Shown here piece by piece: positions 386-13,642 of a DNA stretch of 17,321 bases (positions are counted from its first letter, which is position 1; each line of letters starts with the position of its first letter). The notes beneath the pieces were generated by a model. The model was not told the DNA's origin. It worked only from the letters and a program-made list of their open reading frames with translations, and made no database searches. The translations under genes were made by a program, and so were the position numbers. Source of the DNA: Anaerolineaceae bacterium (GTDB lineage Bacteria; Chloroflexota; Anaerolineae; Anaerolineales; Anaerolineaceae); NCBI GenBank assembly GCA_003542325.1, contig DPKV01000244.1:736-18056 (forward strand), given 5' to 3'.

Positions 386-1564
386 TTAGATCAACCCCAA
401 TTCCTTGCCGACCTTTTCAAAGATTGTAAGAACCTGATCCATCTGCTCATCCGTGTGCGTGGCCATGTAACTGGTGCGCAGCAACTGCCGCCCGGGGGAC
501 ACCGCCGGAGAAATCACCGGGTTGACAAAGATGCCATTCTCAAATAGTCGCTTCCAGGTCATGAAGGTCAATGCATCGTCGCCAATGATGATTGGGATGA
601 CCGGTGTGACCGAATCGCCCGTATCGAAACCGAGGGTCTTATATTCCCGGCGCATTCGCTCGCCAATCGCATTCACCCGTGCAATCCGTTCCGGTTCCTC
701 TTTCATCACCTCCAGTGCAGCCAGGGCTGCGGCGGCATTGGCGGCGGGGATGCTGGCGCTGAAGATCAGGCTGCGGGCTTTGTGTTTAATGTAATCCACT
801 ACGTCCGCTTCACCGGCGATGAACCCACCCAGGGAAGCGAACGACTTGCTGAAAGTGGACATGATCAGGTCCACATCATCGGTCATGCCGAAATGCGCTG
901 CTGTACCACGCCCGCCCCCCAGCACACCCATCGCATGAGCGTCATCCACCATCAGGCGGACTCCGTATTGCTTGCATAATGGCACGATCTCAGGCAATGG
1001 GGCAATATCGCCTTCCATGCTGAACAGGCCATCCACGACCAGCAACTTACCCCGGTCTTCCGGCAGGTTCTTAAACACCCGCTCAAGATGATCGACGTCA
1101 TTATGCGTATAGCGTACGATCTTCCCGCTGCTCAGGAAAGCCCCATCCACAATACTGGCATGGTCTTCCTTATCCAGAACCACGTAATCCCCCCTGCCAA
1201 CCATGGCGCTGATCGTCCCCAGGTTCACCTGCATACGGGTGGAGAAGACCAGTGCAGCGTCTTTGCCCACCCATTCGGCAAGCCTGGCTTCCAGCGTCTC
1301 ATGCAGGGTCATATTCCCATTCAGGAAACGGGAACCCGTGCAGCTGGTACCGTAGCGCTTGATGGCGTTGATCGCAGCTTCCCGAACCTTGGGATGAGTC
1401 GTCAATCCGAGGTAGTTATTGGAGCCGCACATGATAACCCGCTGGCCGTTAAAAATGACTTCTGTTCCCTCGTTCTCATCCAGGGGAATAAAATACGGGT
1501 AGATGCCGGTCTCCTTCGCGTCCTTGACCGTACTGAAATCGTAACATTTCCTAAAAATATCCAT
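386..1564 (-). CDS. Serine palmitoyltransferase-like PLP-dependent alpha-oxoamine synthase
   Basis: This 392-residue protein belongs to the alpha-oxoamine synthase family (SPT, BioF, Kbl), which condenses an amino acid with an acyl-CoA and releases CO2 using pyridoxal phosphate. Visible features are the NNYLGL entry motif (49-54), H135 in the DHAS motif that stacks on PLP, the DDAHAMG motif with D208 and H210, and the Schiff-base lysine K240 in STFSKSFASLGGF. The FSKSFASLGG form, together with GLFSMEGDIAPL and RSLIFSAS, resembles bacterial serine palmitoyltransferases more than BioF or Kbl, whose lysine loop is usually GTLGKA. If so, it makes 3-ketosphinganine or a similar long-chain ketone in the cytoplasm. 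The start is ATG at 1564-1562, with AAGGA upstream. It stands alone on the minus strand between two paralogous LamG-like genes. Glycine C-acetyltransferase is the main alternative; substrate cannot be fixed by eye. Confidence 0.75.
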   Translation of the reverse strand: MDIFRKCYDFSTVKDAKETGIYPYFIPLDENEGTEVIFNGQRVIMCGSNNYLGLTTHPKVREAAINAIKRYGTSCTGSRFLNGNMTLHETLEARLAEWVGKDAALVFSTRMQVNLGTISAMVGRGDYVVLDKEDHASIVDGAFLSSGKIVRYTHNDVDHLERVFKNLPEDRGKLLVVDGLFSMEGDIAPLPEIVPLCKQYGVRLMVDDAHAMGVLGGGRGTAAHFGMTDDVDLIMSTFSKSFASLGGFIAGEADVVDYIKHKARSLIFSASIPAANAAAALAALEVMKEEPERIARVNAIGERMRREYKTLGFDTGDSVTPVIPIIIGDDALTFMTWKRLFENGIFVNPVISPAVSPGRQLLRTSYMATHTDEQMDQVLTIFEKVGKELGLI

Positions 1565-2711: not shown

Positions 2712-3833
2712 ATGGAAATCATCCAAATCCTTCCCGCTGATCGTCAACATCAAAACGCCTTCATCCAATTTCCCTTCGACCTTTACAGCAAGACCCCGCA
2801 ATGGGTGCCGCCGCTGCGGATGGAAATGCGAAAGATATTCATACCCAGCTACGCTTTTTATGATTATGGCGAAGCGGTGTTTTATCTTGCGAAAGATGAG
2901 TTTGGTCAAGTGATCGGCCGGCTGACGGTTGCGAATAACCATCGTTATAACGATTTTCATGGCACCAGGACAGCGTTTTTTTATTATTTCGAATCGGAGA
3001 ACGATCCGGCCATCGCTAAAGGCCTCTTTTCACGCGGCTTCGATTGGGCCAGGTCCCAGGGGCTGGATCACATTCTGGGCCCCAAGGGACTGACCGTTTT
3101 GGACGGATTCGGGATGCTGGTCAAAGGCTTTGAGCATCAGCCTGCCTTCGGGCAACCGTATAACCCCTCCTATTACCCTGAACTGATTGAGGGTTTGGGC
3201 TTTACAAAGGTAAAAGATATCTACACCGGCCGCATCTCCCGTGAAACGCATTTTCCGGAGAAGGTATTAAAAGCGGCCCCACTGGTTGAGAAACGGATCG
3301 GTTTTTCCGCGCCTGAATTGCACAACAAGAAAGAACTCAAACAGGTCATCCAGGATTTCAAACGCCTCTATAATGAATCGCTCGCCGGACCGGCGGGAAA
3401 CGCCGCCTTGACCGATGAAGATATGAATGCGATGGTCTCACAATTAATGTGGATCGCTGATCCCCGCCTGGTCAAGTTGATCTACAAGGACGGAAAGGCG
3501 GTTGGCTGGTTGTTGGGTTACCCAGATATCGGCCGCGCCTTGCAGCGCTGCAAAGGCCGTCTGTTCCCCTTTGGCTGGCTGCAGATCTTACTGGAAGCCA
3601 AACAAACCCATTGGATTGATCTCAATGGGATTGGGATCATTAAAGAATACCAGCGCCTCGGCGGCACAGCGATCCTCTATAACGAGATTTACAAAAGTGT
3701 GATGAACTTCAAACAGTACGATTACGCCGAAATGCTCCAAATGCGCGAAGAGAATATCAACATCCTCCTCGAAGCTGACAGCTTCGATATCGACTTCCAT
3801 AAGATGCATCGGCAGTATGAGAAAGGGTTGTGA
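2712..3833 (+). CDS. GNAT-fold acyltransferase-like protein, possible lipid N-acyltransferase
   Basis: This 373-residue protein has the pattern of a widespread bacterial family annotated as GNAT or hypothetical: FPFDLY...WVPPLR near the start (20-36), a strand FYLAKDEFGQVIGRLTVANNHRYNDF (57-82), a FFYYFE segment (89-94), and QPYNPSYYPELIEGLGF (148-164). The C-terminal half repeats the fold: KAVGWLLG, then an acyl-CoA-loop-like QRLGGTA at 314-320. This layout suggests a double GNAT fold. No signal peptide or membrane segment is seen, so it is probably cytosolic or peripheral. The bacterial ceramide synthase described in Caulobacter is also a GNAT-type acyltransferase, and an SPT-like gene lies about 1.1 kb away, so ceramide-type N-acylation is a reasonable but unproven guess. 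The ATG at 2712 has only a weak purine-rich stretch upstream. The substrate is unknown. Confidence 0.65.
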   Translation: MEIIQILPADRQHQNAFIQFPFDLYSKTPQWVPPLRMEMRKIFIPSYAFYDYGEAVFYLAKDEFGQVIGRLTVANNHRYNDFHGTRTAFFYYFESENDPAIAKGLFSRGFDWARSQGLDHILGPKGLTVLDGFGMLVKGFEHQPAFGQPYNPSYYPELIEGLGFTKVKDIYTGRISRETHFPEKVLKAAPLVEKRIGFSAPELHNKKELKQVIQDFKRLYNESLAGPAGNAALTDEDMNAMVSQLMWIADPRLVKLIYKDGKAVGWLLGYPDIGRALQRCKGRLFPFGWLQILLEAKQTHWIDLNGIGIIKEYQRLGGTAILYNEIYKSVMNFKQYDYAEMLQMREENINILLEADSFDIDFHKMHRQYEKGL

Positions 3834-4200
3834 GTTGTGAATGGTGAGTGGGGAATAGTCAATTAGGCGATTAGGGGATTAGGTATTAGGTAATTAGGTA
3901 TTAGGTACAGAATTAGAAAATTCATCCTATCCATCAATAAAACACAATAGTTGGAGCGCGGACTTCAGTCCGCATAACTGATTTTCATTAATGTCAATGG
4001 AAGAATAAAATAACAGATGAGCGATTTTTAGATAAATCCCTTTTCTTGTGAAAATAGGTGCGGACTGAAGTCCGCGCTCCTTTTCAACTGTGTCAATTAG
4101 TGATCCAAGACCATTAGGAGTCCAATAGACATTATTACCTAGTTATCTAATACCTGATACCTGATACCTACTCCCCCTTCACTCCTCACAATCCCCTATC
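3834..4200. repeat. Gene-free stretch with outer imperfect inverted repeat built from AGGTATTAGG-type units
   Basis: The left part (about 3834-3907) contains TTGTGAATGGTGAGTGGGG followed by repeated ATTAGG/GGTATTAGG units. The right part (about 4136-4200), read on the minus strand, contains TTGTGAGGAGTGAAGGGGG followed by GTAGGTATCAGGTATCAGG. About 18 of 24 positions match between the two leading segments, and the short tandem units agree in kind. The two arms flank the 128-bp inner element at 3953-4080. No gene is supported anywhere in this stretch. It lies between the GNAT-like gene and the FadR-like gene. It may be a slipped-strand repeat or the remains of mobile DNA. Confidence 0.6.
3953..4080. 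mobile_element. Candidate MITE-like element with 22-bp perfect terminal inverted repeats
   Basis: Bases 3953-3974 are the exact reverse complement of 4059-4080. Each arm is also a small hairpin on its own, with core GCGGACTTCAGTCCGC (7-bp stem, TC loop) and its complement form GCGGACTGAAGTCCGC. The arms enclose 84 bases of A/T-rich DNA with no coding potential. An element of 128 bp with terminal repeats and no transposase fits a non-autonomous element. No clear target-site duplication is visible, so mobility is inferred only. Confidence 0.5.
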
Positions 4201-4203
4201 CTA

Positions 4204-4232
4204 TTGATTTTTCCCGTAATTCATTGTACACT
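4204..4232 (+). promoter_or_regulatory. Candidate promoter of the FadR-like gene and downstream cluster
   Basis: TTGATT (4204-4209) and TACACT (4227-4232) are spaced by 17 bp; each matches four of six consensus bases. Transcription would start about seven bases after the -10 box, at or next to the ATG at 4239. No Shine-Dalgarno sequence precedes that ATG, so a leaderless transcript is suggested. Confidence 0.5.
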
Positions 4233-4234
4233 AC

Positions 4235-4245
4235 TGGTATGACCA
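4235..4245. promoter_or_regulatory. Candidate FadR/GntR operator across the start codon
   Basis: TGGTATGACCA is a perfect TGGT-N3-ACCA palindrome. It matches the TNGTNNNACNA pattern of FadR-subfamily GntR sites, and extended (ACTGGTATGACCACT) resembles the E. coli FadR operator. It begins two bases after the -10 box and includes the ATG of the regulator gene, so bound protein would block transcription initiation. I found no second good copy in the other intergenic regions. Confidence 0.6.
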
Positions 4246-4964
4246 CTTACCAGTCAGATTCCAATCCATCCAACAACTGGCATCCCATCCTCAAACCCGC
4301 TGAGCTGGCCGAATCACGCCTGATCGAAGCCATCCTCAATGGCACGTTCCCCATCAACAGCACCCTCCCCGGTGAGCGCGAACTCTCTGAAATACTGGGC
4401 GTGACCCGTCCTACTCTGAGGGAGGCGTTACAACGTCTGGAACGGGACGGCTGGGTGGAGATCCACCAGGGTAAATCCACCCGCATCCGGGACTATTGGA
4501 AAGAGGGCAAGCTGGCCGTGCTCAGTACCCTTTCAGAACATTCGGCCCAGCTCCCGCAAAAGTTTGTCCCCGACCTGCTCAATGTCCGGCTCGCCATGGC
4601 ACCCATGTACACGGAACTGGCGGTCAGGAATGCGCCGGATGCCGTGGTTGGGATCCTGGAAGGCCGCCACTCACTCTACAACCAACCTGAAAACTATGTG
4701 GATTTTGACTGGACCTTGCAGCATGAGCTGACGATCCTGGGCGGGAACCCCGTCTTTATCATGATGTTGAACAGCTTCAAGGACTTGTTCCTCAATCTCG
4801 CCCCTTATTACTTCACCATCTCGCAAGCGCGTGAATCTTCTTTAAAATACTATGATGAATTTGCCCAGGCAGCGACTCAAAAGGACGCTGAACTGGCGGC
4901 ACAACTCACCCACGACATCATGCGTGACAGCTTGTTCTTCTGGCAGCAAATTCAACTCAGCTAA
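4239..4964 (+). CDS. FadR-type GntR-family regulator, probably acyl-CoA responsive
   Basis: This 241-residue protein has an N-terminal winged helix (about 20-85) with PGERELSEILGVTRPTLREALQRLERDGW, very close to E. coli FadR. By alignment from memory, the FadR DNA contacts R35, R45, R49 and G66 correspond to R47, R57, R61 and G78 here, while H65 becomes Q77. The C-terminal half resembles the FadR_C effector domain rather than the commoner FCD domain: LLNVRLAM, GNPVFIMMLNSFKDLF and a final helix in which FadR S219 and W223 align with S231 and W235, E218 with D230, and G216 with M228. It therefore probably binds long-chain acyl-CoA and releases DNA. An in-frame TTG at 4224 was rejected because it lies in the promoter. 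The gene is followed after 20 bases by the AGPS-like gene, its likely target. Confidence 0.8.
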   Translation: MTTYQSDSNPSNNWHPILKPAELAESRLIEAILNGTFPINSTLPGERELSEILGVTRPTLREALQRLERDGWVEIHQGKSTRIRDYWKEGKLAVLSTLSEHSAQLPQKFVPDLLNVRLAMAPMYTELAVRNAPDAVVGILEGRHSLYNQPENYVDFDWTLQHELTILGGNPVFIMMLNSFKDLFLNLAPYYFTISQARESSLKYYDEFAQAATQKDAELAAQLTHDIMRDSLFFWQQIQLS

Positions 4965-4984
4965 AACCTTTTTCGGAGGAAACC

Positions 4985-6583
4985 ATGAAAAGAATTCAAG
5001 GTTGGGGAAACTCAGAGACGGATTATCCTGTCCCTGAACCCGCCCAGCAATATTTGGAAAGTGTTGTCGGAAAACCGCGCCAGCTTAAAAACGCCAGCGT
5101 GGACTCATTAATTAAAAAAGTGCCTTCATCCGATTTGCCAAAGCACCCGCTTGTGTCAACCGATGCTGAAGACCGCCTACGCCATGCCCGCGGCCAATCC
5201 CTGAATGACTGGGTCGATATGCAGGACGGCCTGGTCAATACCTTCCCGGATGGCGTCGCCTACCCAGCTTCAGATGAAGACGTTCGGGACCTGATCGTCT
5301 ATGCCGGACAGCACCGGATCAATCTGATCCCCTATGGCGGCGGCTCCAGCGTCGTCGGTCACCTGACCCCGCCCGGAGACGGCCCTCTCACCCTGAGTGT
5401 GGACCTGTGCAAAATGAATAAACTCCTTAATCTGAATGAGGAAAACCATGAAGCCACCTTTGGCGCGGGTGTCAGCGGACCTGATCTGGAAGCCCAATTA
5501 CAACAGCATGGTTATATCCTCGGCCATTTCCCCCAATCCTGGGAATATTCCACCCTGGGCGGCTGGATTGTCACCCGGTCCGTCGGCCAGCAATCGATTC
5601 ATTACGGGCGGATCGAACCGCTCTTTGTCACCGGCCACATGGAAACCCCTTCGGGGCCTTTGACGTTTCCCCGCGTCCCGAAAAGCGCTGCCGGGCCGAA
5701 TCTGAAACATATCGCTTTAGGCTCCGAGGCTCGTTTGGGCATCCTGACCGAAGCGACGATGCGCATCCGCCGATTGCCGGAAGAGGAACATTTCTATTCC
5801 GCTTTCTTCCCCAATTTTGAAATCGGAGTAGAAGCGATCCGCAAGATCGCCCAGGCCGAACTCCCGCTTTCCATGCTGCGGTTGAGCGATCCCTTTGAAA
5901 CCGAAACGACCTTCCAGCTTTCCGGTGAGGAAAAACTGGTCAACATCGCCAAGAAAGGGCTCAACCTCTTCGGGCAGGGAGACGAACGCTGCATGCTGGT
6001 CTACGGCCTGACCGGGAACCGCTCTGAGAACCGGCTGGCCGACCGGGAACTCGCTCACGCCGTCCGGGCGCATGATGGTATGTTGGTCAAGTTTTATCTC
6101 GGTCAGGAATGGATCAAGAAGCGTTTCCTGACGCCCTATCTGCGGAACACCCTTTGGGACCTCGGCTATGCTCTGGATACCCTGGAGACAGCCCTGCCCT
6201 GGGATAAATTACAGGAAGGACGCAAAGCCATCCTCGGGGCGATCCGGAACGGCTTAAAGGACGAAAATGAACCGATCCTGGTGTTCAGTCACGTATCGCA
6301 CGTTTATACCAACGGCGGCTCCATGTATGTGACCTACCTCTACCGCCGGTCCACCGATCCCGAGCAGACCCTGGCGCATTGGCGCAGGCTAAAAGGAGCT
6401 GCCAGCCAGCAGATTGTGGCGCATGGCGGCACCATTTCCCACCAGCATGGCGTTGGATTGGACCACAAACCCTACCTGCCGCTTGAAAAAGGCGCATTAG
6501 GGATGCAGATCATGCAGAATATCATCCGTGACGTCGATCCCCATGGGATCATGAACCGCGGCAAATTACTGGACACCGATTAA
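4985..6583 (+). CDS. Alkylglycerone-phosphate-synthase-like FAD-binding oxidase
   Basis: This 532-residue flavoprotein belongs to the VAO/PCMH FAD family (COG0277) and resembles alkyldihydroxyacetonephosphate synthase along its length. Marks are an N-terminal GWG...YPVP segment, the FAD pyrophosphate loop PYGGGSS (116-122), PDLEAQLQQHGY, a STLGGWIVTRSVGQ segment, GSEARLGILTEATMRIR, the conserved R299 in LRLSD, and GGTISHQHGVGLDH near the C-terminus. AGPS normally has three histidines there; this protein has H486-Q487-H488. No membrane segment or signal is seen. AGPS exchanges the acyl chain of acyl-DHAP for a fatty alcohol, creating the ether bond of ether lipids. Bacterial relatives such as E. 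coli YgcU are uncharacterised oxidoreductases, so an oxidase role is possible. A GGAGGA site precedes the ATG. It is 27 bases from the glpD-like gene. Confidence 0.75.
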   Translation: MKRIQGWGNSETDYPVPEPAQQYLESVVGKPRQLKNASVDSLIKKVPSSDLPKHPLVSTDAEDRLRHARGQSLNDWVDMQDGLVNTFPDGVAYPASDEDVRDLIVYAGQHRINLIPYGGGSSVVGHLTPPGDGPLTLSVDLCKMNKLLNLNEENHEATFGAGVSGPDLEAQLQQHGYILGHFPQSWEYSTLGGWIVTRSVGQQSIHYGRIEPLFVTGHMETPSGPLTFPRVPKSAAGPNLKHIALGSEARLGILTEATMRIRRLPEEEHFYSAFFPNFEIGVEAIRKIAQAELPLSMLRLSDPFETETTFQLSGEEKLVNIAKKGLNLFGQGDERCMLVYGLTGNRSENRLADRELAHAVRAHDGMLVKFYLGQEWIKKRFLTPYLRNTLWDLGYALDTLETALPWDKLQEGRKAILGAIRNGLKDENEPILVFSHVSHVYTNGGSMYVTYLYRRSTDPEQTLAHWRRLKGAASQQIVAHGGTISHQHGVGLDHKPYLPLEKGALGMQIMQNIIRDVDPHGIMNRGKLLDTD

Positions 6584-6610
6584 TGATCATCATTAGGAAC
6601 GGAGGGAATC

Positions 6611-8188
6611 ATGCTCGATAAGGCCTGGCGTGAAAGGACCTGGTCAGAACTCGATCAACTCTGGGACATCATCGTCATTGGTGGGGGAATTACAGGCGCA
6701 GGGATCTTTAATATGGCCGCTCAGAAAGGCCTGAAAGTCGTTCTGCTGGAAGGGCGTGACTTTGCGTTTGGCACCTCCAGCCGCTCGTCAAAGCTCGTTC
6801 ATGGGGGGATTCGCTATCTCCGAAACCGCCAGTTTAAAGTCGTCCGGGAATCGGTGACGGAACGGGAACGCCTGATCCGTGAATCAGACAGCCTGGTTGA
6901 CCCTTTGGCGTTCATTTTCCCATCTTATAAAGACAACACGCACGATACCCGTATGATGCGGATTGGGGTCGCAGCATACGACCTTTTGGGATCAAAATGG
7001 CAGCACGGCGATCTCGAGCCCCAGGAAGTCAGGAAGGCCTTGCCGGCATTGAACACCGAAAACCTGATCGGCGGTGTGAAGTACTTCGATTCCCGCGTCG
7101 ATGACTCCCAGCTTGTGTTGCGGGTCATCAACGACGGCATCCGGTTCGGCGGCACAGCCATCAACTACGCCAAAGTGGTAAATTTATGCAAATCCAAAAA
7201 CGGCAAAGTGGAAGGCGTCGTCGTTCGGGATGAGACGGGGACTTTATCCCCTTCGTCGATTGAGCTGCTGGGGAATGTCGTGATCAACGCTACCGGGCCC
7301 TGGTCCGACGAACTGCGCGAAAAAGTGGGCGGTGCGCCCAAGCTGCGCCGTTTGCGCGGGAGTCACCTGGTCCTCCCTCGTGAGAATCTGCCCATTGAAG
7401 CAGCAATCACCCTGCTCCACCCCCGTGATAACCGCGCCTTATTTGCAATTCCCTGGGAAGGTCGGACGATTATCGGCACCACCGATCTCGATCACGATCT
7501 CCATGAGGATGAAACCCGCATCACCCGTGATGAACTGACCTATTTATTGGAAGTCGCTGAACAGGCCTTCCCGGATTATCCCCTGACGGAATCCGATGTC
7601 ATCGCCACCTTTTCCGGTCTGCGACCCATCATCAACACCAACGCTCCAACCCCATCTCAGGAATCTCGCGCCCATGCGATTTGGGAGGAGGATGGTCTGG
7701 TCACCATCACCGGCGGGAAACTGACTATTTTCCGTGTCATGGCTGCCGATGTCCTAAACTTCTGCCGGGAACGTCTCCCGGATGAACCCGGCTTCGACCA
7801 TGCCGCGCCTTGTTTCATTCACCCTGTTCCGGAGACCCAGGCGGATGCTGAAAATCCAACCTGGAAGATGATGGCCGGCCGCCTCGGGCAGGATGTGGAT
7901 CCTTTCTTTGAGACCGCCAATCCGGAAGACCTGACCCCCATCTCCCCCATCCCCCAAACCTGGGCTGAATTGACCTGGGCGGCCCGCAATGAGGCCGTCG
8001 CCCACCTGGACGACCTCCTCCTCCGGCGCGTGCGTCTGGGCCTCCTGATGCCGCGCGGCGGAATGGATATGCTTGATCCAATCAGGGGTTTGGTTCAGAA
8101 ACCACTGGGCTGGACCGATAAAACCTGGCAAGAGGAAGTGCAACGCTATCAAGCGATTTGGGAGAAAAACTACGCCGTTCCGGATTAA
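6611..8188 (+). CDS. glpD: FAD-dependent glycerol-3-phosphate dehydrogenase (GlpD family)
   Basis: This 525-residue enzyme oxidises sn-glycerol 3-phosphate to dihydroxyacetone phosphate at the inner face of the membrane, passing electrons to quinone. The FAD Rossmann motif GGGITGAG is at 24-31, followed by TSSRSSKLVHGGIRYL (55-70), typical of GlpD. The substrate-binding arginine and lysine are likely R338 in SGLRP and K370 in TGGKLT. The C-terminal DAO_C-type domain contains ARNEAVAHLDDLLLRRVRLGLL. Length is normal for the family. GGAGGG (6601-6606) precedes the ATG. Placed between an AGPS-like gene and an FGGY kinase, it could supply or consume DHAP for the same pathway. A related dehydrogenase acting on another phosphorylated polyol cannot be excluded. 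Confidence 0.85.
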   Translation: MLDKAWRERTWSELDQLWDIIVIGGGITGAGIFNMAAQKGLKVVLLEGRDFAFGTSSRSSKLVHGGIRYLRNRQFKVVRESVTERERLIRESDSLVDPLAFIFPSYKDNTHDTRMMRIGVAAYDLLGSKWQHGDLEPQEVRKALPALNTENLIGGVKYFDSRVDDSQLVLRVINDGIRFGGTAINYAKVVNLCKSKNGKVEGVVVRDETGTLSPSSIELLGNVVINATGPWSDELREKVGGAPKLRRLRGSHLVLPRENLPIEAAITLLHPRDNRALFAIPWEGRTIIGTTDLDHDLHEDETRITRDELTYLLEVAEQAFPDYPLTESDVIATFSGLRPIINTNAPTPSQESRAHAIWEEDGLVTITGGKLTIFRVMAADVLNFCRERLPDEPGFDHAAPCFIHPVPETQADAENPTWKMMAGRLGQDVDPFFETANPEDLTPISPIPQTWAELTWAARNEAVAHLDDLLLRRVRLGLLMPRGGMDMLDPIRGLVQKPLGWTDKTWQEEVQRYQAIWEKNYAVPD

Positions 8189-8272
8189 CTCCTGATTTCA
8201 CTCAGCCCTGACTCTTCTTTTGTGTTATAAAAGACCATTGACAGTATAAATAAGTCTATTCGGGAGGATACC

Positions 8273-9820
8273 ATGGCAGGTGAACAAATCCTGGCAATTG
8301 ACAACGGTACGCAAAGCGTTCGCGCACTCATTTTTGATCTGAGGGGCAACCTGATCGCCAAAAAGCGGGTTCCCATTCAACCCTACTACTCCGACAAACC
8401 CGGTTGGGCCGAACAGGATCCATTGGTCTTTTGGCGGGGTGTCTGCGAAGCCTGCCAGGGCCTGTGGGAAATGGAAGGCGTCAGGAAGGATGCCATCGTC
8501 GGGGTCGGCCTGACTACTCAACGTTCCACGGTGATCAACCTGGATTCGAACCAGCAGCCGCTCCGTCCTGCCATCGTCTGGCTCGATCAACGCCGGACGG
8601 AAGGGCTGGAACCCGTTAAAGGACTTTGGGGATTGTTGTTCAAGCTGGCGGGGATGCAGGAGACCGTCGCCTATCTCCAGGCGGAAACGGAAGCAAACTG
8701 GATCAAGACCCATCAACCTGAAATTTGGGACAAGACGGAAAAATACGTCTTCTTATCAGGGTACCTCACCCATAAACTGACCGGCCAGGTCATCGACTCC
8801 GTCGGCTGCCAGGTGGGTTACATGCCTTTCGACTATAAGAGTCAGGACTGGGCCAAACCCTCCGATTGGAAATGGGACGCCGTCATGGTTGATCGTGAGA
8901 TGCTCCCGGACCTGGTTCCACCGACCGGATTACTGGGTCACATCACACCGGAAGCCTCCGCAGCGACCGGGATCCCCGTGGGTCTGCCGCTGATCGCAAC
9001 CGCAGCTGACAAAGCGACCGAGGTGATCGGCGCAGGCTGTCTCGACCCTCAAATCGGCTGCCTGAGTTATGGCACTACAGCGACCATCAACACCACCCAC
9101 AGGAAATTCACCGAAGTCATCCCCCTGATCCCGCCCTATCCAGCGGCGGTTCCGGGCGCGTATTCTTTGGAAGTCCAGATCTATCGGGGTTTCTGGATGG
9201 TAAGCTGGTTCAAGGAAGAATTCGGCCAGGTTGAGCGCCGGGAAGCTGAACGGCTGGGGATTGAAGCGGAAGCCCTGTTTGACAAACTGCTGCAGGAAGT
9301 CCCTGCAGGCGCAGAGGGCTTGATTTTACAGCCTTACTGGTCACCCGGCCTGAAGATTCCCGGTCCGGAAGCCAAAGGCGCTGTGATCGGGTTTGGCGAT
9401 GTCCACAGCCGGGCGCACTTCTACCGGGCTATTATTGAGGGTCTCGCCTATGCCTTGCGGGAAGGCGCGGAACGCACCGAGAAACGCTCTCATGTTCCCA
9501 TCACCGCCCTGCGGGTGGCCGGCGGCGGCAGCCAAAGCCCCGGGGCCATGCAGATCACAGCCGATATCTTCGGCCTTCCGGTATCAAAACCGCACGTGTA
9601 CGAAGCATCCGGTCTGGGCGCTGCAATTGATGTCGCTGTCGGGTTAAATCTGCATCCCGATTTCAATATGGCGGTGAACCAAATGACCCGCCTCGGAGAA
9701 ACTTTCGAGCCTGACCGCTCCCGTCATCAGATGTACAGCGAGCTTTACGAGAAGGTCTATAAAAAAATGTACAACCAGCTCAAGCCTTTGTATGGCGAGA
9801 TCCGGGAGATCATCAAATAA
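8273..9820 (+). CDS. FGGY-family carbohydrate/polyol kinase, substrate unknown
   Basis: This 515-residue kinase has the two-lobed FGGY layout: ATP-binding [10 protein letters not shown] (8-17), the sugar-site strand GLTTQRSTV (79-87), IVWLDQRR, the probable catalytic base D246 in [10 protein letters not shown], a YGTTATIN phosphate loop, and the C-terminal adenosine motif AGGGSQSPG (416-424). Glycerol kinase has NQRET at the sugar site, where Arg and Glu hold glycerol; here it is TQRST, with S85 replacing that Glu. It is therefore probably not a standard glycerol kinase despite its place beside glpD. E. coli YgcE, an FGGY kinase of unknown substrate encoded near the AGPS-like YgcU, is a useful comparison. 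The gene has GGGAGGA before its ATG and an 84-base gap from glpD, large enough for extra regulation. It ends the cluster. Confidence 0.8.
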
Positions 9821-11634: not shown

Positions 11635-12909
11635 ATGAAAACTTTTTCTCTGCCCTACGGCAACGCCAGCCTGACATTTACTTTGCCCGAATCCTGTCAG
11701 GTTGAGGAAATTCTTCCCCATCCCTATACGATGCCGGTAAATGTGGATCAGACATTACAAGCTGCGCTGAAAGACCCTTTGGGGTCGACCGCCTTCAGTC
11801 ATTTTCCCAAAGACGCTTCCGTGGGGATTGCCATCAATGACAAAACCCGACCGATACCCAAGCCGAATCCCCTCCGGCACCTCCTCCAAACTCTCGAAAA
11901 GGAAGGTTTTGCCCGGGAAAAGATCACCCTGTTTATCAGTTCCGGCACCCATACGGCGATGCCCGAAGTGGAATACTCACGTTTGTTGGCCGAGGATATC
12001 GTTGCGAATTATAAAATCGTCGTCCATGATTGCGATCGTTCTCCAATGGTGGATTTGGGGAAAACAGCTTACCAGACGCCTATCCTGATCAATCAAGCCT
12101 ATTTCGAAAGCGATCTCAAGATCGCCGTGGGTAATATCGAACCCCATCACTTCATGGGCTTTTCAGGGGGCGTCAAGACCGTTGCCATTGGCCTGGCAGG
12201 CAGAGAAACGATCAATACCAACCATGCCATGCTGATCCGTGACCATACCCTTTCAGGCGTCTACCATATCAATCCGATGCGTCAGGACGTGGAAGAGATC
12301 GGCCGTAAAGCCGGCGTCCACCTTGTTCTTGGCACGGTTCTGAACGAGGAAAAGGAAATCATGCGGGTCTTCTTTGGCGATCCCATCTCCGTCATGCTCG
12401 CAGCAGTGCCTGTCGTTCGTGAGGTTTTTGGCCGGACTGTCCCGCAACCCTACGATCTGGTCATCGCCTCACCTGGCGGCGCGCCGAAAGATATCAACCT
12501 TTACCAATCCCAAAAGGGGCTGACGCATGCGGCTCGGATCACCAAAGATGACGGTTGGGTTGTGCTGTTGGCAGCCTGTCCGGAAGGATCCGGCAGCCAA
12601 TCCTATGAGGACTACATCACGAATGTGGACTCTCACAAATCCGTCCTAAATGAATTCAAATCAGGTTTCTTCAAAGTCGGCCCCCATAAAGCCTTCCAGA
12701 TCGCAAGAGAAGCCATCCGGGTCAGGATTATCCTGGTCTCGGAGATCGCCCCGCAGAACGTAAAACAATGGAAAATTACGCCCAGCCAACCGGAAAAACT
12801 GCAGGATTTATTGGATTGGCTGTTCATCCAACTCCCCCCCAATCCCCGAATCGCCATCCTTCCGGGAGCGACCCGAACCATGGCCGAGGTACAAAATACC
12901 AATGACTGA
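11635..12909 (+). CDS. LarA-type nickel-pincer alpha-hydroxyacid racemase/epimerase
   Basis: This 424-residue protein belongs to the lactate racemase LarA family. Every catalytic position known from Lactiplantibacillus plantarum LarA has a match at nearly the same spacing: D69 and R72 (NDKTR), H106 (SGTHTAM), H171 (EPHHF), K181 (SGGVK, the lysine that binds the pincer cofactor), H197 (NTNHAM), and Q291 with K294 (YQSQKG). The enzyme should therefore carry the nickel-pincer nucleotide and interconvert stereoisomers of a 2-hydroxyacid by hydride transfer. LarA homologues act on lactate, malate, aromatic and longer hydroxyacids and sugar acids, so the substrate is open. The cofactor genes larB, larC and larE are not in this window. 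GGGAGG (11623-11628) precedes the ATG. The gene overlaps the next one by 8 bases. Confidence 0.85.
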   Translation: MKTFSLPYGNASLTFTLPESCQVEEILPHPYTMPVNVDQTLQAALKDPLGSTAFSHFPKDASVGIAINDKTRPIPKPNPLRHLLQTLEKEGFAREKITLFISSGTHTAMPEVEYSRLLAEDIVANYKIVVHDCDRSPMVDLGKTAYQTPILINQAYFESDLKIAVGNIEPHHFMGFSGGVKTVAIGLAGRETINTNHAMLIRDHTLSGVYHINPMRQDVEEIGRKAGVHLVLGTVLNEEKEIMRVFFGDPISVMLAAVPVVREVFGRTVPQPYDLVIASPGGAPKDINLYQSQKGLTHAARITKDDGWVVLLAACPEGSGSQSYEDYITNVDSHKSVLNEFKSGFFKVGPHKAFQIAREAIRVRIILVSEIAPQNVKQWKITPSQPEKLQDLLDWLFIQLPPNPRIAILPGATRTMAEVQNTND

Positions 12910-13642
12910 CTTTATGAAGAACCCCCAGCTTGAAGGCGATGATTTCTTTTGGAAGGGAAATTCAACCGGCTTCTTATTAATCCACGGCTTCACCGCCACC
13001 ACCGCTGAAATCCGGTTGATGGCTGAAAAACTGCATGCAGATGGCTTCACCACTTCCGGTGTACTCCTTCCCGGACATGGCACACGCCCCGAAGAACTCA
13101 GCCATACACCCTGGCAAATGTGGCTGGATAAGGTCAAACGGTCTTATGAAGCCCTGCTTCGTGAATGCGATCGGGTTTTCATCATCGCCGAATCCATGGG
13201 GGCTTTGCTGGCCATTGACCTCGCCGCCCAGCACCGGGAAATTGCCGGGCTATTGTTATTCGCGCCGGCTATCAAAGTCAGGAAACTGTGGCTTGCAAGG
13301 TTTATCGCACCCTTCAAGGAAAATTTTGAGAAGTCCGGCAAGAATGATGGCTTACCCTGGAAAGGATATACGGTCTACCCGGTCAAAGCGGCGGTTGAGA
13401 TGTTGAAACTACAGGAATTCACCCGTAAACAACTCAAGCGCGTCACCCAACCCACCCTCATTTTTACGGGCGGGCATGAACGCACTATCACGGCGGACTC
13501 CGCCCAAATTGTGTTCGATGGGTTGTTATCAAAGGTCAAAGGGATGATCCACATGGCTGAATCCCCCCATTGCATCCTGCTCGATAAGGAATTGGACCTG
13601 GCTTACAAGGATGTGATTGAATTTGTGCATGAGCATTCCTAA
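12902..13642 (+). CDS. Alpha/beta hydrolase of the carboxylesterase/monoacylglycerol lipase type
   Basis: This 246-residue cytosolic protein resembles Geobacillus Est30 and bacterial monoacylglycerol lipases. It has the oxyanion HGF motif (28-30), PGHG (57-60) and a nucleophile elbow AESMGA with S98. The late segment GGHERTITADSAQIV aligns with Est30 ARHDEMINPDSANII, which puts E193 where the catalytic Asp normally lies; H223 in ESPHCILLD is the likely catalytic histidine. The elbow is also unusual, with Ala in place of the first Gly of GXSXG. The ATG lies inside the last codons of the LarA-like gene, so the two are co-transcribed and probably translationally coupled. It may release the hydroxyacid from an ester, but the substrate is unknown. 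No terminator is obvious after it. Confidence 0.75.
   Translation: MTDFMKNPQLEGDDFFWKGNSTGFLLIHGFTATTAEIRLMAEKLHADGFTTSGVLLPGHGTRPEELSHTPWQMWLDKVKRSYEALLRECDRVFIIAESMGALLAIDLAAQHREIAGLLLFAPAIKVRKLWLARFIAPFKENFEKSGKNDGLPWKGYTVYPVKAAVEMLKLQEFTRKQLKRVTQPTLIFTGGHERTITADSAQIVFDGLLSKVKGMIHMAESPHCILLDKELDLAYKDVIEFVHEHS

Follow-up and report, generated by a model that had tools for sequence, protein, structure and literature searches.

A FadR-headed AGPS-like, GlpD-like and FGGY kinase operon of Anaerolineae as a candidate route for oxygen-independent breakdown of alkyl-glycerol ethers

Microbes and sediments are rich in ether lipids, and the available part of a 2021 review names AGMO, which needs O2 and tetrahydrobiopterin, as the only known enzyme that breaks alkyl-glycerol ethers (PMC7911779). 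On the AGPS side, the exchange reaction is described as going via a flavin-N5 adduct in the portion of the enzymatic work used here (PMC3509576). The closest described operon is PA3026-PA3025-PA3024 of Pseudomonas aeruginosa, reported in 2021 under the regulator GliR; the sections of that report available to us propose a synthetic direction for it, from glycerol to alkylglycerone phosphate (PMC8151288). We analysed 17,321 nt of DNA (the whole stretch is called the window) on contig C124 of an Anaerolineaceae metagenome-assembled genome (MAG; 1.84 Mb), whose closest named relatives are Anaerolineaceae and Brevefilum. In the window, a FadR-family regulator is followed by an AGPS-family flavoprotein, a GlpD-like dehydrogenase and an FGGY kinase. 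We tentatively read these genes as a FadR-controlled catabolic operon for the O2-independent breakdown of alkyl-glycerol ethers, a reading that we favour at slightly less than an even chance. Anaerolineae are largely anaerobes, and a dedicated anaerobic route, if true, would explain the recycling of ether lipids.

The four genes are adjacent on the forward strand, as the original prediction had it, and open reading frames and domain matches agree on the families. They encode the regulator (4239..4964, GntR plus FadR_C, with an alternative TTG start at 4224), the flavoprotein (4985..6583, 532 aa, of a GlpD-linked clade and with the motifs HFPQSW and SHQHG), the FAD-dependent dehydrogenase (6611..8188, 525 aa, DAO plus DAO_C) and a kinase of a YgcE-like group (8273..9820, 515 aa, FGGY_N plus FGGY_C). 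Gaps of 20, 27 and 84 bases separate them. Compared by the annotation in the available part of its report, the P. aeruginosa operon has the same families in the same order (an oxidoreductase ascribed to the alkylglycerone-phosphate step, glycerol 3-phosphate (G3P) dehydrogenase, FGGY kinase). The AGPS-GlpD-FGGY order is also shared by the gammaproteobacterial loci L201-L204, L206 and L207; an AraC gene is divergent at L201, and a weaker AraC match was found at L206. An operon of these families was thus already known. What differs here is the control, by FadR and a FadR-type operator instead of the divergent AraC-type GliR, the direction, which we suggest to be breakdown, and the spread: the portion of the P. 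aeruginosa report used here describes the operon in a few strains, whereas the AGPS-GlpD pair was present in 65 of 199 genomes of the Anaerolineae class.

The flavoprotein is built, like AGPS/ADPS, from FAD_binding_4 and FAD-oxidase_C domains. Its best matches in the Protein Data Bank (PDB) were AGPS structures (2uuu, E 1.5e-79; 4bby, E 2.1e-65) with D-lactate dehydrogenase far behind (E 3.6e-24), and it scored 119.9 bits against the NCBIfam GlcD model, whose cut-off is 567.9. The AGPS positions H300, R419, R515, Y578, H615 and H617 were kept in 65/65 rows of the window clade. E. coli GlcD keeps only H617 of these and differs at seven of the eight positions checked. The guinea-pig residues R419, R515 and Y578 correspond to R352, R447 and Y508 of the Dictyostelium enzyme, with a chain numbering offset of 3 that was deduced since all three then match; the latter residues are important for catalysis according to the available part of PMC3509576. 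The window protein shares with AGPS/ADPS the two Arg, the Tyr and the His residues of catalysis. Two trees, a quick one of 95 proteins and a careful one of 54, agreed with each other. PDB ranking, residues and trees group the flavoprotein with AGPS and not with glycolate or lactate oxidases, as had been anticipated from the sequence, and a GlcD/lactate-oxidase identity was ruled out on the same three grounds.

Judged from the trees, the cluster flavoprotein is not an orthologue of animal or Dictyostelium AGPS. In the 54-protein tree its clade (25 rows, support 100/99) holds Chloroflexota and gammaproteobacterial proteins and one Bacillota-labelled protein, and guinea-pig and Dictyostelium AGPS fall in another (12 rows, 97/97). 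Chloroflexota proteins in this animal-type clade are up to 47-48% identical to guinea-pig AGPS. At residue 303 the AGPS-proper clade has Asp (15/15 rows), and three mostly dehydrogenase-linked groups have Gln throughout (65/65, 11/11 and 7/7 rows); R419, R515 and Y578 are kept in all four. The window protein has Gln for Asp303 and also Gln for His616, as do 64 of the 65 window-clade rows at the latter position. Its gene partners differ from those of AGPS/ADPS as well, being a dehydrogenase and often a kinase, not an acyltransferase. Three gammaproteobacterial loci of the animal-type clade show the acyltransferase context: acyltransferase-AGPS-SDR at L208, AGPS-acyltransferase (PF01553, GPAT_C)-NAD_binding_4 (male sterility) at L209, and an acyltransferase fused to AGPS at L210. 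Searching the remaining 113 of 116 loci with these three acyltransferases, we found none of that type within 5 kb of AGPS. Both AGPS kinds occur together in four Chloroflexota genomes (G035, G067, G114, G194), and the gammaproteobacterial genome G316 holds both operon kinds (L204 and L209).

These observations bear on an alternative in which the operon serves ether-lipid biosynthesis: the kinase would supply G3P, the GlpD-like enzyme dihydroxyacetone phosphate (DHAP) and an unlinked acyltransferase acyl-DHAP, into which the AGPS-like enzyme would swap a fatty alcohol. The AGPS family membership and the catalytic residues are as this alternative expects, the route is the one proposed for P. aeruginosa (PMC8151288, in part), and Agps homologues in 56 of 558 Chloroflexota MAGs from the Black Sea are read as alkenyl-ether potential in the available part of that study (PMC11868695). 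Control by acyl-CoA would suit synthesis too. We nevertheless consider biosynthesis rather unlikely, though a serious rival. The cluster flavoprotein does not fall among the characterised AGPS enzymes in the trees, it has no L208-L210-type acyltransferase within 5 kb, and the coexistence of both AGPS types in the four Chloroflexota genomes and the gammaproteobacterial one also speaks against it. In addition, GlpD-type enzymes work in the oxidising direction, and the FGGY kinase lacks glycerol-binding residues, as described below.

The original prediction suspected that the gene association recurs and named a lack of conserved linkage as a finding that would count against it; we found the linkage to be kept. 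We compiled 56 Chloroflexota-type loci, from Chloroflexota plus MAGs labelled Marinimicrobia and Bacillota. Two of the MAG labels are questionable: L037, labelled Marinimicrobia, shares 75% identity with the window, and L045, labelled Bacillota, groups within Chloroflexota. A GlpD-like gene followed AGPS on the same strand at less than 500 bases in 50/56, and FadR preceded AGPS in 31 of the 53 loci with room. Among gammaproteobacteria, AGPS matches at E<=1e-50 occurred in 10 of 321 genomes, and at their loci GlpD followed AGPS in 10/11, FGGY was present in 9/11 and FadR in 0/8. Each of the two locus sets includes at least one place twice (L046/L082 and L050/L205). The adjacency of AGPS and GlpD in 50/56 and 10/11 loci exceeds chance. 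In a second AGPS group (38-42% identity), 8/10 loci had a GlpD type of their own next door.

The same pairing was seen across the 199 class genomes. In a table built from candidate lists in which at most seven candidates per genome were scored, 65 genomes had both AGPS (groups 1 and 2) and GlpD (types A and B), 5 AGPS only, 1 GlpD only and 128 neither; G175, whose sole listed AGPS-like match (39%) is of the L120-L123 type, was left out, and its inclusion gives 65/6/1/127. For GlpD type A alone the counts were 49/2/0/148. The p-values for this table leave the relatedness of the genomes uncorrected. An FGGY orthologue (63-73% identity) was found in 30 of the 199 genomes, 22 of them with AGPS, and the next-best paralogue in a search of 48 genomes reached 35% identity at most. 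With the linkage kept and the flavoprotein grouping with AGPS, it is thus fair to read the genes as the predicted pathway for ether lipids or alkylglycerols with control of acyl-CoA type; the assembly side of that prediction holds up less well, breakdown being the direction favoured here.

The GlpD-like enzyme stayed under both NCBIfam GlpD equivalog cut-offs (266.2 against 360, and 240.6 against 352). The residues R54, Y55, H233, R317, R332 and K354, which we take to form the G3P site, were kept in 78/78 GlpD-like rows, and with this site whole the substrate should carry a glycerol-3-phosphate head. The FGGY kinase scored 162.7 against NCBIfam GlpK, where the cut-off is 590.35. It retained R84, W104 and the catalytic D246 in 47/47 rows and lost E85 (47/47 rows), Y136 (46) and Q247 (46), positions that presumably bind glycerol in GlpK; F271 of GlpK, on which two alignments disagreed, was left out. 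A canonical GlpK (42-61% identical to that of E. coli) was found elsewhere in 44 of the 48 genomes with window-type AGPS and a GlpA-type dehydrogenase in 32, in 26 of these 32 within 5 kb of GlpK; the window's own incomplete genome showed no canonical GlpK. The kinase/dehydrogenase pair of the cluster is therefore a second set, and ordinary glycerol use would thus be a separate system in most hosts. A role of the FGGY protein as the cell's glycerol kinase is disfavoured by the cut-off, the lost residues and the separate GlpK. The cluster GlpD is the only GlpD-type match in most of the 48 host genomes; as sole G3P dehydrogenase it was rejected for the 32 with a GlpA-type enzyme, and may hold for the other 16.

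The regulator matched FadR_C with E 1.4e-33 and scored above the cut-off of the NCBIfam FadR model NF003444 (202.9 against 189), staying below that of TIGR02812, the model of gammaproteobacterial FadR. A FadR-type operator lies at 4232..4256 (+), with the core ACTGGTATGACCACTT at 4233-4248 and the extended form TACTGGTATGACCACTTACCAGTCA, and overlaps the FadR ATG at 4239. The N-terminus MTTYQ of the protein, kept in near relatives, is the operator's own translation (4239-4253). Upstream of FadR, 31 of 34 loci carried a palindromic element, ACTGGTNNGACCNCTT, followed in many copies by ACCAG, with an exact match in 26 and a single mismatch in 5 more. As the pattern was fixed after the first matches were known, these figures are plain counts, not the outcome of a blind test. 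In a control stretch of equal length within the gene body, the best match had at least 3 mismatches. The 11-base core CTGGTNNGACC is also found about 30 bases before E. coli fadB.

We scanned 12 genomes for the operator. Nine had an exact copy, once each and always at this operon, two further ones had an operon site with one mismatch, and at the operon of G144 it was not found. In the window's genome the operon site is the only one with at most one mismatch. At this threshold the 12 genomes had 33 off-operon sites, and the control pattern, read backward, gave 197, so that there is no sign of a wider FadR regulon; FadR as a global regulator was rejected on these counts. The DNA-contact positions R35, R45, T47, R49 and G66 were kept in 34/34 rows, H65 in only 13/34, and T46 is Pro throughout. 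At positions that we take to line the acyl-CoA pocket, S219 was kept in 33/34 and W223 in 34/34 rows, and F149, Y215 and G216 in none. This FadR is therefore likely to be a dedicated fatty-acyl-responsive repressor, with acyl-CoA as the putative ligand.

The proposed route would lead from alkylglycerol to alkyl-G3P, alkyl-DHAP and finally DHAP plus fatty alcohol. The FGGY kinase would phosphorylate 1-O-alkylglycerol at its free end, giving 1-O-alkyl-glycerol 3-phosphate, and the GlpD-like enzyme would oxidise C2 to form 1-O-alkyl-DHAP, passing electrons to the quinone pool. The AGPS-family enzyme, running its flavin-N5 exchange chemistry in reverse, would then release the fatty alcohol, with DHAP as co-product if water were the acceptor or acyl-DHAP if a fatty acid were. 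DHAP would enter glycolysis and the alcohol would be oxidised to a fatty acid, whose acyl-CoA would relieve FadR repression of the operon. We infer every substrate, the direction of the third step and acyl-CoA as the FadR ligand. The route would do the same net job as AGMO, namely cleavage of alkyl-glycerol ethers, without O2 or tetrahydrobiopterin.

On the gene content, breakdown appears to fit better than assembly. Kinase and C2 dehydrogenase in sequence would yield alkyl-DHAP, exactly the AGPS product, so that the reverse reaction would free fatty alcohol. AGPS chemistry needs a C2 ketone (PMC3509576, available part), which a kinase followed by a C2 dehydrogenase would supply. For synthesis one would expect an acyltransferase step ahead of AGPS and a reductase step behind it, as in the gammaproteobacterial operons of the other clade. 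The monoacylglycerol-lipase-like gene downstream and, in P. aeruginosa, the phospholipase C and lipid kinase that GliR also raises (PMC8151288, in part) would fit lipid breakdown. In the open-licence literature that we searched, we found no suggestion that an AGPS-type enzyme cleaves ethers.

AGPS-like genes in some other lineages have related partners. In Treponema (L059) a GlpA-like enzyme, a pyridine-nucleotide oxidoreductase, DUF1667, FGGY and AGPS are consecutive, and in Streptomyces (L212) and Tsukamurella (L216) GlpD, TetR, AGPS and a lipid kinase of YegS/diacylglycerol type occur together; annotation places GlpD next to AGPS in Streptomyces fungicidicus and Tsukamurella. Of the AGPS-like regions on plasmids (nine annotated, two more without annotation), the annotated ones comprised two of GlpD/lipid-kinase type, one with FGGY and glycerol dehydrogenase (Roseibium), two with dehydrogenase, glutathione-transferase and CoA-ligase genes, and four others. 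Kinase and dehydrogenase partners can apparently be exchanged between phyla. A broader proposal, which we regard as possible though on balance doubtful, is that bacteria cleave alkyl-glycerol ethers without O2 by this route and that the AGPS superfamily has one biosynthetic branch, with Asp303 and acyltransferase partners, and several that cleave ethers, with Gln303 and kinase or dehydrogenase partners; in different phyla, unrelated families would take the place of the kinase and the dehydrogenase. If true, bacterial 'AGPS' annotations would gain a testable split, and a bacterial AGPS gene would not always be evidence for ether-lipid production.

Several results weigh against a catabolic ether-lipid operon. 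No fatty-alcohol dehydrogenase was found within the operon. FGGY lay within 5 kb downstream of AGPS in only 20 of the 48 Chloroflexota-type loci with room, the FGGY orthologue was absent from 48 of 70 AGPS genomes, and 8 of the 30 genomes with the orthologue had no cluster-type AGPS. In Herbidospora, where GlpD adjoins AGPS, no lipid kinase is next to it. The conserved G3P site of the cluster GlpD may suit plain G3P just as well, and in 13 host genomes with GlpK and without a listed GlpA the cluster enzyme could be the ordinary G3P dehydrogenase. The window's own genome is 66.6% complete. The FadR positions F149, Y215 and G216, again assumed to belong to the acyl-CoA pocket, were kept in 0/34 rows. 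The acyltransferase contrast rests on three loci, because the Chloroflexota members of the animal-type clade have no acyltransferase nearby, and the acyltransferases of those three loci themselves served as search queries. Finally, deletion of PA3026-PA3024 left growth unaffected on the media tested, according to the available part of the report (PMC8151288).

Another alternative is catabolism of a different polyol, a small glyceryl ether or a glycoside; the substrate of the AGPS-like enzyme would then be a DHAP adduct that is not a lipid. It may also hold for E. coli YgcU/YgcE and for Roseibium. The predicted vicinity of an AGPS-like gene and an FGGY kinase in E. coli was borne out: ygcU, ygcW and ygcE lie together, with ygcU and ygcE on opposite strands. 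Of the E. coli relatives tested, YgcE is nearest to the cluster kinase (32%), and the two belong to the same broad group; the ygc locus differs in having neither GlpD nor FadR, its sequences are remote, and YgcU falls far outside the cluster clade. FGGY and AGPS-like genes also occur together at the Roseibium locus L218, with an ABC transporter and a glycerol dehydrogenase, and at L141 of Chloroflexota, a ygcU-ygcW-ygcE-like cluster, so the E. coli-type module exists within the class too. We rate this alternative as rather unlikely for the window, though likewise a serious rival. The presence of FadR and its operator suggests long acyl chains, and the core operon showed no sugar transporter. 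R515, kept in the cluster clade, has given way to other residues in the proteins of Roseibium, Xanthobacter, Aminobacter, Moraxella and M. dioxanotrophicus, whose substrates therefore probably differ. The open-licence literature searched held no paper with both ygcU and ygcE, and the available part of a review on FGGY kinases has nothing on the YgcE-like group.

Two further plasmid settings were noted. The AGPS-like proteins of L215 and L219, on plasmids of the dioxane degrader Xanthobacter dioxanivorans and of Aminobacter, have Met for R515, and their genes lie among those for alcohol and aldehyde dehydrogenases, glutathione transferases and CoA ligases. These surroundings resemble, as we take it, polyethylene glycol degradation clusters, and the enzymes possibly cleave ethers of non-phosphorylated substrates. 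On a Rhodococcus pseudokoreensis plasmid (L217), two 'sterol desaturase family' genes lie near an AGPS-like gene; AGMO belongs to the sterol desaturase superfamily, which makes this another possible ether-lipid link.

Downstream of the operon, 12902..13642 (+) encodes an alpha/beta hydrolase that resembles bacterial monoacylglycerol lipases, its best PDB matches (E 1.6e-32). Of the 12 nearest loci (L032-L043), some of which end at a contig edge, 6 have such a gene downstream. It lies outside the conserved core and is a possible supplier of (alkyl)glycerol. It also suits an alternative that uses the same three enzymes, and hence the same genes, for acylglycerol salvage, from monoacylglycerol via lysophosphatidate and acyl-DHAP to DHAP plus fatty acid; AGPS naturally frees fatty acid from acyl-DHAP (PMC3509576, in part). 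We regard this as very unlikely: a dedicated operon would be surprising because esterases and lipases manage the task with neither a kinase nor a flavoprotein.

Elsewhere in the window, a LarA-family racemase (11635-12909) scored 507.7 against the NCBIfam cut-off of 462 for the nickel-dependent malate racemase LarAH5, and in several relatives the lipase-like gene and MsbA-like ABC transporter genes lie downstream of it. Upstream of the operon there is a serine-palmitoyltransferase-like gene (386-1564, minus strand; best PDB match a solved serine palmitoyltransferase, E 4e-125), followed by a gene for a 373-aa protein (2712-3833, plus strand) that gave no match in Pfam and PDB searches. Both are kept in 7 of the 12 nearest loci (L032, L034, L035, L038, L039, L041, L043), and the pair may represent a sphingolipid locus in Anaerolineaceae. 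Between the 373-aa gene and FadR, an imperfect inverted repeat around GCGGACTTCAGTCCGC / GCGGACTGAAGTCCGC (3949-4089) looks like a small mobile or repeat element.

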